A program made the position numbers and the translations under genes. Below, piece after piece: positions 20,269-57,132 of a stretch of 64,000 bases of DNA (positions are counted from its first letter, which is position 1; every line of letters starts with the position of its first letter). Origin of the DNA: Halorubrum halophilum (GTDB taxonomy: Archaea; Halobacteriota; Halobacteria; Halobacteriales; Haloferacaceae); contig NZ_BBJP01000012.1 in the NCBI RefSeq assembly GCF_000739595.1, positions 1-64,000 on the forward strand, in the 5' to 3' direction. A model generated the notes under the pieces. The model was given only the letters and a program-made list of their open reading frames with translations. It was not told where the DNA came from and did no database searches.

Positions 20269-20790
20269 GGAGAGAACTCCGTTGAACTGCTCAGAGGCGA
20301 ACGGTTTCGGGAGTGAGTGGCGGAGTTCGTTGGTAGCGATACGGTATTTAAAAAGGTGTGAGCGACGGCGACGAACGCTTATAAATGAACGGGGCGGTGG
20401 CGCGTGCCGACGAGCGGCCGACAGGCCGCGAGTCGAACGCGCGAGGGAGTCGGTGGTCCGGAGCGAAGCGGAGGGCCACCGACGAGGCTGGGGAGGTGTG
20501 AGGCTGTGTGGTGCGGTTGCGGGGCGGGACTCAAAGGGGCAGCAGCGAGGGCGGCGCAGGCGACTCAAGCACCGCAACGAGGGAGCGAACGAAGTGAGCG
20601 ACCGAGTGAGGCGCGCAGCGAGCCTGCGCCGCCCTCGCTGCTGGGGCTTTGGAGGTCTTCACCGTGCTGTCTGTGGCTTATAAACAGCCGCCAGCAGCAT
20701 CACTCGATCGCTTATAAACAACCGTGTCACCAATTCGCGGTACCTACTCCCGCCGTAGTTCAGCAGAGCCGAGCGTGGTGGGGTCTCCTT
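20269..20790. other. Non-coding interval with structured repeat
   Basis: Between the enolase-like gene and a small membrane protein gene. Most of it is copy 1 of the ~400-bp structured repeat described separately (20344-20752). The first 75 bases show nothing recognised beyond promoter-like sequence. Confidence 0.6.
20344..20752 (+). repeat. Structured dispersed repeat, copy 1
   Basis: It begins GTATTTAAAAAG and ends CCTACTCCCGC. Internal hairpins: CGGCC/GGCCG (20415-20419 with 20424-20428), GTCGGTGG/CCACCGAC (20449-20456 with 20476-20483), and a perfect 22-bp stem (20540-20561 with 20622-20643) just after CTCAAAGGGG. TATA-like CTTATAAA boxes occur at 20388, 20687 and 20711. A clearly homologous but diverged copy lies inverted at 54473-54872 with compensatory changes in stems. 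No transposase or long terminal inverted repeat is visible. It may be a non-coding RNA gene or a mobile structured repeat. Confidence 0.7.
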
Positions 20791-52645: not shown

Positions 52646-53995
52646 TCAGTCGTCGTCGCCGGTCGCGACGATCCGCTCGCCGGAGACGAACCACCCGTCG
52701 TCGTTCGCGCGCGCCGCGATCTTCGGCTGGAACACCCACGCGGTGAGCCCCAGGATCGGGATCATCGACGCCCCCACGATCGCGTAGCCCACGTGGAGGT
52801 TCGGAAGGAACGCGGCAGAGAAGGCGAGCGGGTAGACGACCCCGCCGATCGTTCCGATCCCGCCGACGATCCCCGCGACCGATCCCGAGTTGTCGGGGAA
52901 CATCGCTGGCACCTGCGCGAAGATCGCGCCCTCGGAGAACGCGCAGCCGGTGCCGACGAGGAAGCCGGCGACGACGGCGACGTAGATGTTCCCCGTGAGC
53001 CCGGCGAGCGTCATGCCGAACATCGATAACACGACGAACGAGAGCGCGGCGAACGTCCACTGGTTGCGGTACTCCCCCTCGAAGAAGGGGAGGATATCTC
53101 GCTCGTTGCGGGCGACGACGTCGCTGATGTACCCCCCGATAGGCCGTAAGAGTCCGGCGGCGACCGAGAAGGTCGCCGCGAACGACGCGGCGATCACGAT
53201 GTCGCCCTGGCCGAACGCCTCGCGGTAGTAGGTCCCGAGCCACCCGTTCATCGCGAGTTCGAGCCCGAAGCTCATCACGTACGCGACGGAGAGGACGACC
53301 GCGCCGTAGCGGGTGGCGATGAACCGCCACTGGTCCCAGCTCACGCCCGCCTTCGTCGCCTCCCGCTTCGCTTCGCTCTTCGCGGCGGCGCCGAAGACGT
53401 AGTAGACGATCCCGAGCAGCACCGCGAGCACGCCAGTGTAGAAGAACGCCGCCCGCCAGTTCGACGAGGTTGCGAGGAACGCCGAGCCGAAGATCGGGTC
53501 GACGTACCCCTCACCGAAGATCCGCGGCAGGGTGAAGTACGCGCCCAGTCCGGCGCCGGCGTTGCCGATCCCGGCGAAGATCCCCTCTGCGGTCCCGAGG
53601 TTCTCCTCCTCGAACCATTCGGCCACGTGCTGGATGCCGATGACGAAGGTGATCCCCGAGAGCGACGCGACGATCCGGGAGGCCGTGAACACCTCGTACG
53701 TCTGTGCGAACGCGCTGATGATCGCAAACGCCCCGACCGTCACGAGCGTCACGCCGCCCGTGACGTTCGCCCCGAACCGGTCGGTCAGCGGCCCGATGAC
53801 GATGCGACCGAGGGGGACGGCGACGATGGCCGCGCTCGCGACGACACCGAGCTGCTGGACCGAGAGCCCGAACTCGTCGGCGATGCCGCCGGTGAACGGC
53901 GCGAACGAGAACCAGATCACGAATCCGAGGTTGAACATCGCCGTCGCGAGGATCAGGTTCCGGTACTTCCCGTACAACAGATCCGTCGGCTTCAC
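52646..53995 (-). CDS. narK: Nitrate/nitrite transporter NarK family
   Basis: A 449-residue MFS protein with 12 predicted helices. The signature [17 protein letters not shown] (loop 2-3) and [17 protein letters not shown] and [19 protein letters not shown] are typical of NarK/NasA nitrate porters. GTG 53995 overlaps the stop of a 54-codon upstream gene (GTGA). It supplies nitrate for the NasA proteins encoded nearby. Confidence 0.9.
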
Positions 53996-54156
53996 CGCGA
54001 GTCACCTCCGGTGGAGCGACCGGCGGCACCCGTCGGATCGGGCGTCTCGAACGTCCGATCGACAACCGTCTCGCTCTGGAGTGAACGACTCGACGGAGAT
54101 CCGGCGGCGTTGGAACCGAAATCGCCCACCAGATCCGAAATAAATTGTCTGAACAT
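53992..54156 (-). CDS. 54-residue small protein coupled to narK
   Basis: ATG 54156 opens [20 protein letters not shown] and runs to TGA (53992-53994), overlapping the narK GTG by 4 bases. The first 13 residues are amphipathic. TTTATTAATAA (54203-54193 on the minus strand) lies about 40 bases before the ATG. The coupling argues for translation. Function unknown; it could regulate NarK or act as translational leader. Confidence 0.5.
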
Positions 54157-54223
54157 AGTTTTTCTCACGTTTCAACAGCACATCCTGGTTATTAATAAAC
54201 GAATCGCTCAACAAATAGCAAGT

Positions 54224-54238
54224 ATATTCCGAGAATAT
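54224..54238. promoter_or_regulatory. Palindrome upstream of narK promoter
   Basis: ATATTC-CGA-GAATAT is perfect, about 20-30 bases upstream of the TTTATTAATAA box of the narK unit. It could bind a nitrate or nitrogen regulator. The known haloarchaeal nar motif CGAA-N4-TTCG was not found at this site. Confidence 0.4.
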
Positions 54239-54472
54239 TGATTCATTCTCAATAACACTCCACACACGTATTTATTCTCTCTTTGAATGGAGAAATTATA
54301 AGACGAGCACATTGCTGGGACGATTTTTGAAAAACGACACCCCACACCGGATTCTCGTGATCTGTTTTAATTCTTTAATGGTGATGGAGGATCCGTAATT
54401 CTGCTGAAATTTAACTCCTCAGAGGTCTTAGGCTGAAACAGTGGTTTGCTGAATACTGCTCCGAGCTCGATA

Positions 54473-54872
54473 GCGGGAGTAGGTATAGCGAGTTGGGTGA
54501 GTGGTGGTTTATAAGTGATCGAGTGGTGTTGCTGTCGGCTGTTTATAAGCGATCGATAGTGCTGCGGTGAACACTGCCAAAGCCCCAGTCGCTGAGGACG
54601 GTGCACGCTCGCTGCGCTCCTCACTCAGTCGCTACCGCTCCTTCGCTGCGGTGCTTACGTCGCCTGCACCGTCCTCGCCGGCTGCCCCTTTGAGTCCCAC
54701 CCCACCGCACAGCACCGCAGCCTCACACCTCCCCAGCCTCGTCGCTGGCGCCGACGGCGCCAGCGACTCCCTCGCACCGTCGGTGAGCGGCCCATAGGAC
54801 CGCTCACCGGGGCGCGCCACCGCATCGTTCTTTATAAGCGATCGTCGCAGTCGCTCATGTCTTTTTAAATAC
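54473..54872 (-). repeat. Structured dispersed repeat, copy 2
   Basis: Read on the minus strand it starts GTATTTAAAAAG and ends with CCTACTCCCGC, like copy 1. It shares blocks such as CTCAAAGGGGCAG and GACGAGGCTGGGGAGGTGTG. Stems: 12-bp perfect GTCGCTGGCGCC/GGCGCCAGCGAC (54741-54752 with 54756-54767), CGGTGAGCGG/CCGCTCACCG (54781-54790 with 54800-54809) and GAGGACGGTGCA/TGCACCGTCCTC (54594-54605 with 54665-54676). Stem sequences differ from copy 1 on both sides, keeping pairing. It separates narK from nasA. Confidence 0.7.
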
Positions 54873-54987
54873 GCTCTTGCCACCACCGATCTGCAACACT
54901 CACTCCCGTGTTCTCTCGCTGCTGTGTCTGTATCGACCGCACACGAGACAGGCTCTCGCTCTTTCTGAGGAATCCAACGGGGCCGGA

Positions 54988-57132
54988 TCAGGAGTACGAA
55001 CTCGTGCCATTCGCCTTCCCGCTCCCGGTAAGATCGGTGCTCGTGCGGTCGGGAGCGCTCAGACTGATCGCGCACTGCTTGAGATTCGGCTCGGCCGACT
55101 CCGGGTCCGCGGCGGACAGCGTCAGCTCGTTGGCCGCCGGGTTGTGGACCGGGAGCCAGACGAGCCCCGGCGGCACGTCGGCGTCGGGCGTAACGCTGAC
55201 CGTCACCGCGGAGCGACGGGACTCGATCACCGTCTCTCCCCGGTCGAACGCTCGCAGGTGGTCGGCGATCGTCTCGGGGTGCATCCGCGCGGCCGTCGCG
55301 CTCTCGTCCCCGTCGCCGGCGTCGGAACGCGTCCGGACGCCGGTGTTGTACACGTCCGGACGCCGACCGGTGGTGAGCGTGAGCGGGTACTCCGTGTCGA
55401 TCGGCTCCGGCACGCCCCGATGAGACGTGTTCGAGAACCGCGCTCGGCCCGAGTCGGTGGGGAACGACCACGGGCTGTCGGCGTCGTTGGCCGTGGTCTC
55501 ACCCCCGTCCCCGACGTAGTACCGGTATCCGCCTTCGCCGGTCTCGTCCGGCGCGGGCCACCGGACGGCCAGCTCCTCGGAGAGTCGCTCGTAGGAGATC
55601 CCCGAAAGGTCGGCCGTCGTCCCGCGCGTCAGGGCGCTGAGCTCGTCGAACAGCGCTTCGGGGTCGAGCCGCGTCGACTCGAACAGGTCCGGGACGATGC
55701 GGTCGGCGACCGCGCCGATGATGTCCACGTCCTGCCGAACGCCGTCCGGCGGCTCGCGCGCCGCCGTGACCCGCGAGACGCGCCGCTCCATGTTCATCAC
55801 CGTCCCCTCGGACTCGCCCCACGTCGCCGCCGGCAACACCACATCGGCCAGCTCGACGGTGTCGGACCGGAACGCGTCCTGGGCGATCAGAAACGTGTCG
55901 TCGAGGGCGCTTTCGACGTGATTCGCGTCGGGCATCCCCGCGACCGGGTTCGTCGCCACCGTCCAGCAGACGTCGATGTTGTCCCGCGCCAGCTCGTCGA
56001 TGATCCGGACGAACCCCGGCCCCGACGAGTCGGGGAGTCGGCTCAGGGGAACGCCCCACTCCCTCGCGATCGTCTTCCGATGATCCACGTCGTCGAACGG
56101 TCTGTACCCCGGCCACGACGACTTCGAGGCGCAGACGCGGTTCCCCATCGAGTTCGCCTGCCCGGTCAGCGAAAACGGCCCGCTTCCCGGTCCCAGATTA
56201 CCGGTGGCCAGACACAGATCGATCAGCGAGCGGGCGGTTCCCGTCCCTTGGACGCTCTGGTTGACTCCCATCCCCCAGTAGACGAGGGTCCGAGCGTCGA
56301 ACGCCGCGGCCAACTCGGAGACGCGCTCGACCGACACCCCGGCCGTCTCGGCCGCGACGGAGATGTCGGGCAACGACCCGACCATGGCCTCGAATCCCTC
56401 GGTGTGGTGCTCGACGAACTCGCGGTCGACGAGGCCGTCCTCGACGGCCCGCGCGAGCATGGCCCGCGCCAGCGCCAGATCGGTCCCCGGCTCCGGTCGG
56501 ACGTGGAGGTCGGCGTCGGCAGCCGTCTCGCTCTCGACGGGGTCGACGACAATTAGTTTGCTGTCGTCGTCGCTCGCGCTGTCGGCGATCCACCGGTACA
56601 GCACGGGATGGGCGATCTTCGGATTCGCGCCCCAGATCACGTGGGTCTCGGCGTCGGGGACGTCCTCGTAGGTCGGCGGCGGCGCGTCGCTCCCGAACGC
56701 CTGCATGTACGCCTGCACCGCTGAGGCCATACAGAGGGTGGTGTTGGCGTCGTAGTACCGGGTACCGAAGCCGCCGCGCGCGAGCTTCCCCAGCGCGTAC
56801 GCCGCCTCGTTCGTCTGCTGGCCGCTTCCCAAGACGGCGACGTTGTTGTTCCCCTTCCTGAGCGCCTCGATGATACGCATCGAGACCGTCCCGAGAACGG
56901 TGTCCCAGTCGGCCGGCTGGAGCGTCCCGCCGCGGCGGATCAGCGGTTCGGTCACCCGCTCGCCGCTCGGGTCAACCGTCTCGCGGACCCCGCGGCTGCA
57001 GGTCTCTCCCTCGTTCGTCGGGTGGGCGTCGTCGCCGCGAACGTCGACGAGCCGCCCGCCGGCGCCGCCACGCTGTCGATACCCACAGCCGACCGCACAC
57101 CGCATACACGTTGTTGGCTTACGATCAGTCAT
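54988..57132 (-). CDS. nasA: Assimilatory nitrate reductase, molybdopterin subunit (paralogue 1)
   Basis: A 714-residue protein. The N-terminal [4Fe-4S] site is CMRCAVGCG plus CSRG (residues about 9-16 and 45). Then GKLARGGFGTRYYDANTTLC (Mo-pterin region), WGMGVNQSVQGTGTARSLID, GPGSGPFSLTGQANSMGNRV and a C-terminal molydopterin-binding domain (LTLTTGRRPDVYNTGVRTRS). It is about as long as NasA/NarB-type enzymes and has no transmembrane part. It reduces nitrate to nitrite with reduced ferredoxin. TTTATC lies about 30 bases before the ATG. A second, clearly homologous gene sits upstream. Confidence 0.85.
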   Translation of the reverse strand: MTDRKPTTCMRCAVGCGYRQRGGAGGRLVDVRGDDAHPTNEGETCSRGVRETVDPSGERVTEPLIRRGGTLQPADWDTVLGTVSMRIIEALRKGNNNVAVLGSGQQTNEAAYALGKLARGGFGTRYYDANTTLCMASAVQAYMQAFGSDAPPPTYEDVPDAETHVIWGANPKIAHPVLYRWIADSASDDDSKLIVVDPVESETAADADLHVRPEPGTDLALARAMLARAVEDGLVDREFVEHHTEGFEAMVGSLPDISVAAETAGVSVERVSELAAAFDARTLVYWGMGVNQSVQGTGTARSLIDLCLATGNLGPGSGPFSLTGQANSMGNRVCASKSSWPGYRPFDDVDHRKTIAREWGVPLSRLPDSSGPGFVRIIDELARDNIDVCWTVATNPVAGMPDANHVESALDDTFLIAQDAFRSDTVELADVVLPAATWGESEGTVMNMERRVSRVTAAREPPDGVRQDVDIIGAVADRIVPDLFESTRLDPEALFDELSALTRGTTADLSGISYERLSEELAVRWPAPDETGEGGYRYYVGDGGETTANDADSPWSFPTDSGRARFSNTSHRGVPEPIDTEYPLTLTTGRRPDVYNTGVRTRSDAGDGDESATAARMHPETIADHLRAFDRGETVIESRRSAVTVSVTPDADVPPGLVWLPVHNPAANELTLSAADPESAEPNLKQCAISLSAPDRTSTDLTGSGKANGTSSYS

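Follow-up and report, generated by a model that had tools for sequence, protein, structure and literature searches.

The window, namely the whole stretch of 64,000 nucleotides from Halorubrum halophilum that was analysed, holds two copies of a structured repeat, located on opposite strands and sharing 78% identity over almost their full length. A first-pass annotation had described them as a repeat of approximately 400 bp at 20344-20752 and 54473-54872, and both copies were found at those coordinates. This extent is, however, too short: with their transposon-like ends, the full elements span about 20277-20770 on the plus strand (copy 1) and 54401-54982 on the minus strand (copy 2). These limits are approximate, resting on the long-form alignment and the end motifs in copy 1, and on IS6-like end motifs at 54401-54420 and 54967-54982 in copy 2. 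The ends of copy 1, CTCCGTTGAAC (20277-20287) and GTTCAGCAGAGCC (20758-20770), are degenerate IS6-like motifs, and inside them lie a left inner inverted end, CGGGAGTGAGTGGC (20308-20321), and its right partner, CCTACTCCCGCC (20743-20754). Copy 2 is set (window 52646-57132) between two minus-strand genes which, from reading their translations, we take to be those of an MFS transporter and a molybdopterin oxidoreductase, and an AT-rich stretch at about 54150-54400 adjoins it.

The anatomy of the repeat was derived from an alignment of 21 full copies and from the fold of 83 distinct core sequences. In plus-strand copy 1, the TATA-like boxes GTATTTAAAAAG and CTTATAAATG (20344-20387) come first; they are conserved among the aligned long forms and remain putative, as there are no promoter-activity data. 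They are followed by hairpin P1 (20399-20446), defined by the fold of the 83 cores, and hairpin P2 (20449-20483), supported by the covariation count and formed by the arms GTCGGTGG (20449-20456) and CCACCGAC (20476-20483). A G-rich linker conserved among the aligned copies, which runs from GAGGCTGGGGAGG to GGGCGGGAC (20484-20529; in general form GAGGCTGGGGAGG..GGGYGGGAC), then leads into hairpin P3 with its flanking G tracts (20522-20651). On the minus strand, copy 2 holds P3 at 54578-54702, P2 at 54741-54767 (GTCGCTGG..CCAGCGAC, again by covariation count), and P1 at 54782-54808 (by the fold and coordinates of the cores). In the window, the covariance model of P3 (R1) matches the P3 hairpins of the two copies and nothing else, with 88.2 bits for copy 1 and 90.4 bits for copy 2. 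A 3' tail (20652-20742) with CTTATAAA boxes at 20677-20719 closes copy 1, and contains the open frame LINSRQQHHSI, whose changes had been said to fall mostly at third positions. That claim failed, as substitutions number 12, 17, and 19 by codon position and a stop is present in 2 of 21 copies, and the frame was rejected as coding.

P3 is closed by CAAAG/CTTTG, next to which come a GGG/GGG internal loop and a long stem with conserved internal loops, whose bases are invariant across families in a 45-sequence alignment. This hairpin of 90-120 nt, GGGYGGGACT[G/C]AAAGGGGC - hairpin - GGGGCTTT[C/G], is the unit common to all arrangements: it may stand by itself, pair head to head with an inverted twin, or follow a 5' domain made up of P1, P2, and the G-rich linker. 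Further repeated sequence was observed around and within the element. In another Halorubrum genome (G021; L200-L219), most of 20 cores are followed by at least one tandem unit, roughly 57 bp long. These units repeat GGCTGGGGCTTTGG, carry a TATTTATAA box, and reproduce the 3' strand of the P3 base. At several loci (L105 at about 9800, L130, L045, L060, L227, L238, L240, and L252), the element also contains nested inserts of roughly 50-60 bp, each bearing two tandem hairpins. Two species have such inserts at matching positions of orthologous copies, and the insert sequences are similar across different families. The inserts have the appearance of another repeat family, smaller than this one, a possibility we only raise here.

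The claim that both arms of the stems change together held for the two stems that had been quoted, P2 and the long stem of P3. Across the 83 Halorubrum cores, P2 and outer P3 exhibit up to four Watson-Crick types at single positions, and in an alignment of 45 diverse copies both-sided change occurs at 20 of the 30 P3 pairs. In this alignment, 96.7% of the cells are paired, compared to 74.9% after shuffling and at most 51.9% after sliding, while the covariation score of 0.550 compares with 0.152 and at most 0.081, respectively. The P3 structure was derived from the tested alignment itself and is thus favoured in the slid control; the margin is nevertheless wide. Because the non-Watson-Crick cells of the 83 cores are mostly G.T rather than A.C (30 vs. 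9), it is one particular strand that folds; the 45-copy table gives 45 vs. 9, with the caveat that related sequences are counted more than once in such cell counts. The plus strand also folds better than the minus strand in 83 of 83 cores, which base composition explains in part. Four G tracts are conserved among the copies, partly through a bias of the extraction pattern, and the canonical G-quadruplex motif is not enriched (47 observed vs. 58.8 in shuffles).

The two window copies are members of a large family. BLAST against their own genome returned 250 candidates, of which 40 were scored and all 40 were strong matches, and the core motif GGGACTCAAAGGGGCAGC has about 146 matches there against 6 for the reversed control, far beyond chance. 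Their inverted pairing, to which attention had been drawn, is nothing special: they are two among well over a hundred copies lying on both strands. Copies are present in all 52 Halorubrum genomes searched, with 6 to 185 matches of the exact motif per genome in 18 sampled Halorubrum besides the own genome, and near zero outside Halorubrum, so that the exact form is almost confined to the genus. Diverged relatives in other genera hold GACTGAAAGGGGC with GGGGCTTTC, a C-G to G-C swap at the closing pair. Within the order, a two-part P3 pattern has matches in 115 of the 293 genomes and 44 of the 87 genera and none in the control, and model R1 recovers 65 of 393 genomes of the phylum, every one of them in the same order. 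The structure, the folding strand, and the spread of the repeat family are thereby shown. The first-pass annotation had proposed selection on RNA or DNA structure, to be checked with a covariance model in haloarchaeal genomes and abandoned if there were no further copies, or neither covariation nor a transcript; the search, run with R1, found further copies, and with copies many and covariation of both arms present, the proposal holds strongly. Rfam 15 gave no match at the curated gathering score—only irrelevant sub-threshold hits—and literature searches on repeats and on small RNAs, and for the sequence string, yielded no description of the repeat, within a scope that left out most subscription journals.

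Outside Halorubrum, P3 is either solo or paired head to head with an inverted twin across a short spacer, and in several loci it is preceded by a 5' domain whose linker resembles GGCTGGGGAGG. Inverted pairs were often observed in these genomes, with about 20-35 nt between G tracts (L226, L227, L232, L238, L243, L251, L252, and L261). The genes flanking P3 have no common function. Most solo copies are co-directional with the next gene, many of them 70-135 bp before it, a bias that is only suggestive, given a small sample in which some loci are orthologous. Two pairs of same-slot copies illustrate how the element evolves: in one (L233/L235) it is nearly unchanged and its flanks diverge more, while in the other (L244/L245) the stems differ throughout and the ends are conserved, that is, the stem has been replaced at one slot.

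Nearly every copy is intergenic, and several species often share a copy in the same slot and orientation. In the own genome, where placement relied on a rough purpose-made gene caller, 84 copies lie between genes, and the 80 with both neighbours called occupy 36 convergent, 38 tandem, and 6 divergent gaps; those in tandem gaps are 21 sense and 17 antisense, without orientation bias relative to genes in Halorubrum. Downstream of menC, about two thirds of Halorubrum loci have the element, with one and the same orientation and even where the next gene differs; from others it is cleanly absent. Similarly, among five slots compared in seven related genomes, many are shared in the same orientation, some hold internally deleted remnants, and some are empty. 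Many slots are old. The menC-like gene beside a window copy has named orthologues, by which the window was assigned to Halorubrum. Same-slot menC copies are 77.9% alike and paralogues within one genome 78.5%, while the menC-like gene that flanks a window copy mostly shows 81-93% DNA identity, which argues for fast change within a fixed structure or for homogenisation by recombination. A Halorubrum-like menC locus (82% protein identity) with a shortened element was also observed on a contig labelled Halobellus captivus (L047), where gene transfer or a naming problem is possible.

Mobility has been documented for the long form. In the window's clade, many copies carry inner inverted ends like CGGGAGTRGGTRT (66 matches), and in many of them outer ends like GGCTCTGTTGAAAYCC lie beyond. 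As the first-pass annotation had held, transposase is lacking: none was found between the inner inverted ends, 95-550 bp apart, in any long-form copy examined. Several elements with GGCTCTGTTGAAAYCC-like outer ends and without the core are flanked by exact 8-bp duplications, and for a 683-bp core-bearing copy the flanking duplication matches at 7 of 8 positions. From the end sequences and the duplication length alone, we tentatively take these ends to be of the IS6 family. At least one genome, G036, has newly acquired a long element with such ends, a private insertion at a site that is empty in seven other genomes; fresh transposition was seen solely for this form, and not for P3 or the core alone. 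The own genome also holds a series of elements (L187, L190, L192, L194, L195, L196, and L199) that measure 579-1368 bp, have GGCTCTGTTGAAAYCC ends, and are flanked by exact 8-bp duplications; one of them lies inside another, and the ORFs of two (L192 and L196) include no obvious transposase.

Our preferred reading is that of a family of non-coding intergenic repeats, structured and dispersed, that extends across the haloarchaea and is REP/BIME-like, working as a folded single strand. It is based on the high copy number and wide spread; the covariation with its controls and the one-strand wobble preference; the intergenic copies on both strands relative to genes; the shared slots, remnants, and one private long-form insertion; the solo and inverted-twin arrangement, as in REP/BIME; and the replaced stem, within conserved ends, at one slot, together with the IS6-like ends and 8-bp duplications. 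In this model, the unit would be non-autonomous and its folded strand recognised by a host or transposon protein; occasional transposition would spread the family, recombination between copies would keep it uniform, and any transcribed copy would form a structured stretch of RNA between genes. The REP/BIME-like working is inferred, without data on transcription or a protein partner, and we consider this reading as likely to be right as wrong. Against it stand a unit much longer than that of REP repeats and with better-conserved internal loops, the restriction of fresh transposition to the long IS6-like form, and the long-term slot conservation and the nearly unchanged same-slot pair (L233/L235), which also fit a functional RNA.

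REP/BIME elements with their RAYT (Y1 HUH) transposases are bacterial, with units of 20-40 nt and a GTAG-like foot. Like them, the haloarchaeal repeat consists of intergenic hairpins scattered singly or in inverted pairs, with a conserved foot beside a variable stem and many copies per genome. However, it is archaeal, its unit is much longer (90-120 nt for P3 vs. about 20-40 nt), its foot is GGGACTGAAAGGGGC rather than GTAG-like, and it has a second domain and invariant internal loops, a feature that REP repeats conserve less. The ERIC, BOX, RUP, and Correia-type repeats of bacteria are likewise intergenic, palindromic, of high copy number, and 100-400 bp long, as is the case here, but the haloarchaeal repeat extends across many families of an entire archaeal group and shows conserved slots and covariation at that depth. 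It shares with the large structured non-coding RNAs of Rfam a complex, covarying, RNA-like fold outside genes, and differs from them in its high copy number and in lacking a match at the curated threshold of Rfam 15. Finally, the halovirus HF2, which infects Halorubrum, has TATA boxes in its intergenic repeats, whose length of about 58 bp (PMC8707807) is close to that of the tandem units of about 57 bp in G021, although the motifs quoted for them, TCTTTAAGTC and CGTCTNNTAGAG (PMC8707807), differ from those of the G021 unit. A viral origin was rejected, as blastn found no phage match to the Halorubrum copy and viral contigs hold no exact P3 pattern.

The main rival is a class-wide RNA, in which P3, with or without the 5' domain, would be transcribed, bind a conserved protein, and act within transcripts or free, its amplification in Halorubrum being secondary. 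The invariant internal-loop bases across families, the covariation and one-strand wobble preference, the conserved slots, and the mostly co-directional solo copies outside Halorubrum speak for it. On the other hand, there is no conserved promoter upstream of solo P3, neighbouring genes have no common function, orientation is unbiased in Halorubrum tandem gaps, and inverted twins would place one copy antisense; we hold this rival to be less likely than not. In a bolder version, the family would be a new class of large structured RNAs occupying constant intergenic positions across haloarchaea; its stems would be exchangeable, its invariant loops would bind a conserved protein, and Halorubrum would have amplified it to more than 100 copies. 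This version is possible, though less likely than not, and comes without transcript or binding data.

Two other explanations are very unlikely. An ordinary MITE of the IS6 type, folding only incidentally, would account for the IS6-like ends, the 8-bp duplications on several elements (7 of 8 in the 683-bp copy), and the private insertion in G036. The long form does resemble such MITEs in its GGCTCTGTTGAAA-like inverted ends without transposase, and exact 8-bp duplications flank related elements that lack the core, but it is only a clade-specific carrier: core-only copies without such ends occur throughout Halorubrum, P3 alone occurs haloarchaea-wide, and the covariation is strong. The distribution of P3 thus largely refutes this explanation, which stands for the long form only; the MITE carries the structure and does not explain it. 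A bidirectional terminator, insulator, or chromosome-organising site acting mainly between convergent genes, possibly through a G-quadruplex, has in its favour the 36 of 80 Halorubrum copies in convergent gaps and the four conserved, partly extraction-biased G tracts, and against it a canonical G4 motif not above shuffles, solo copies outside Halorubrum seldom in convergent gaps, and no T run seen 3' of the hairpin.

The finding is a covariation-backed structural repeat present in many families of one archaeal group and missing from Rfam 15. It is relevant to the annotation and comparison of Halorubrum genomes, in some of which copies number about 150 or more. As an RNA, it would be a group-wide one with hundreds of natural variants for testing; as a REP-like repeat, it would offer an archaeal system in which to study the spread of folded repeats, their persistence at fixed sites, and the means by which copies are kept alike.
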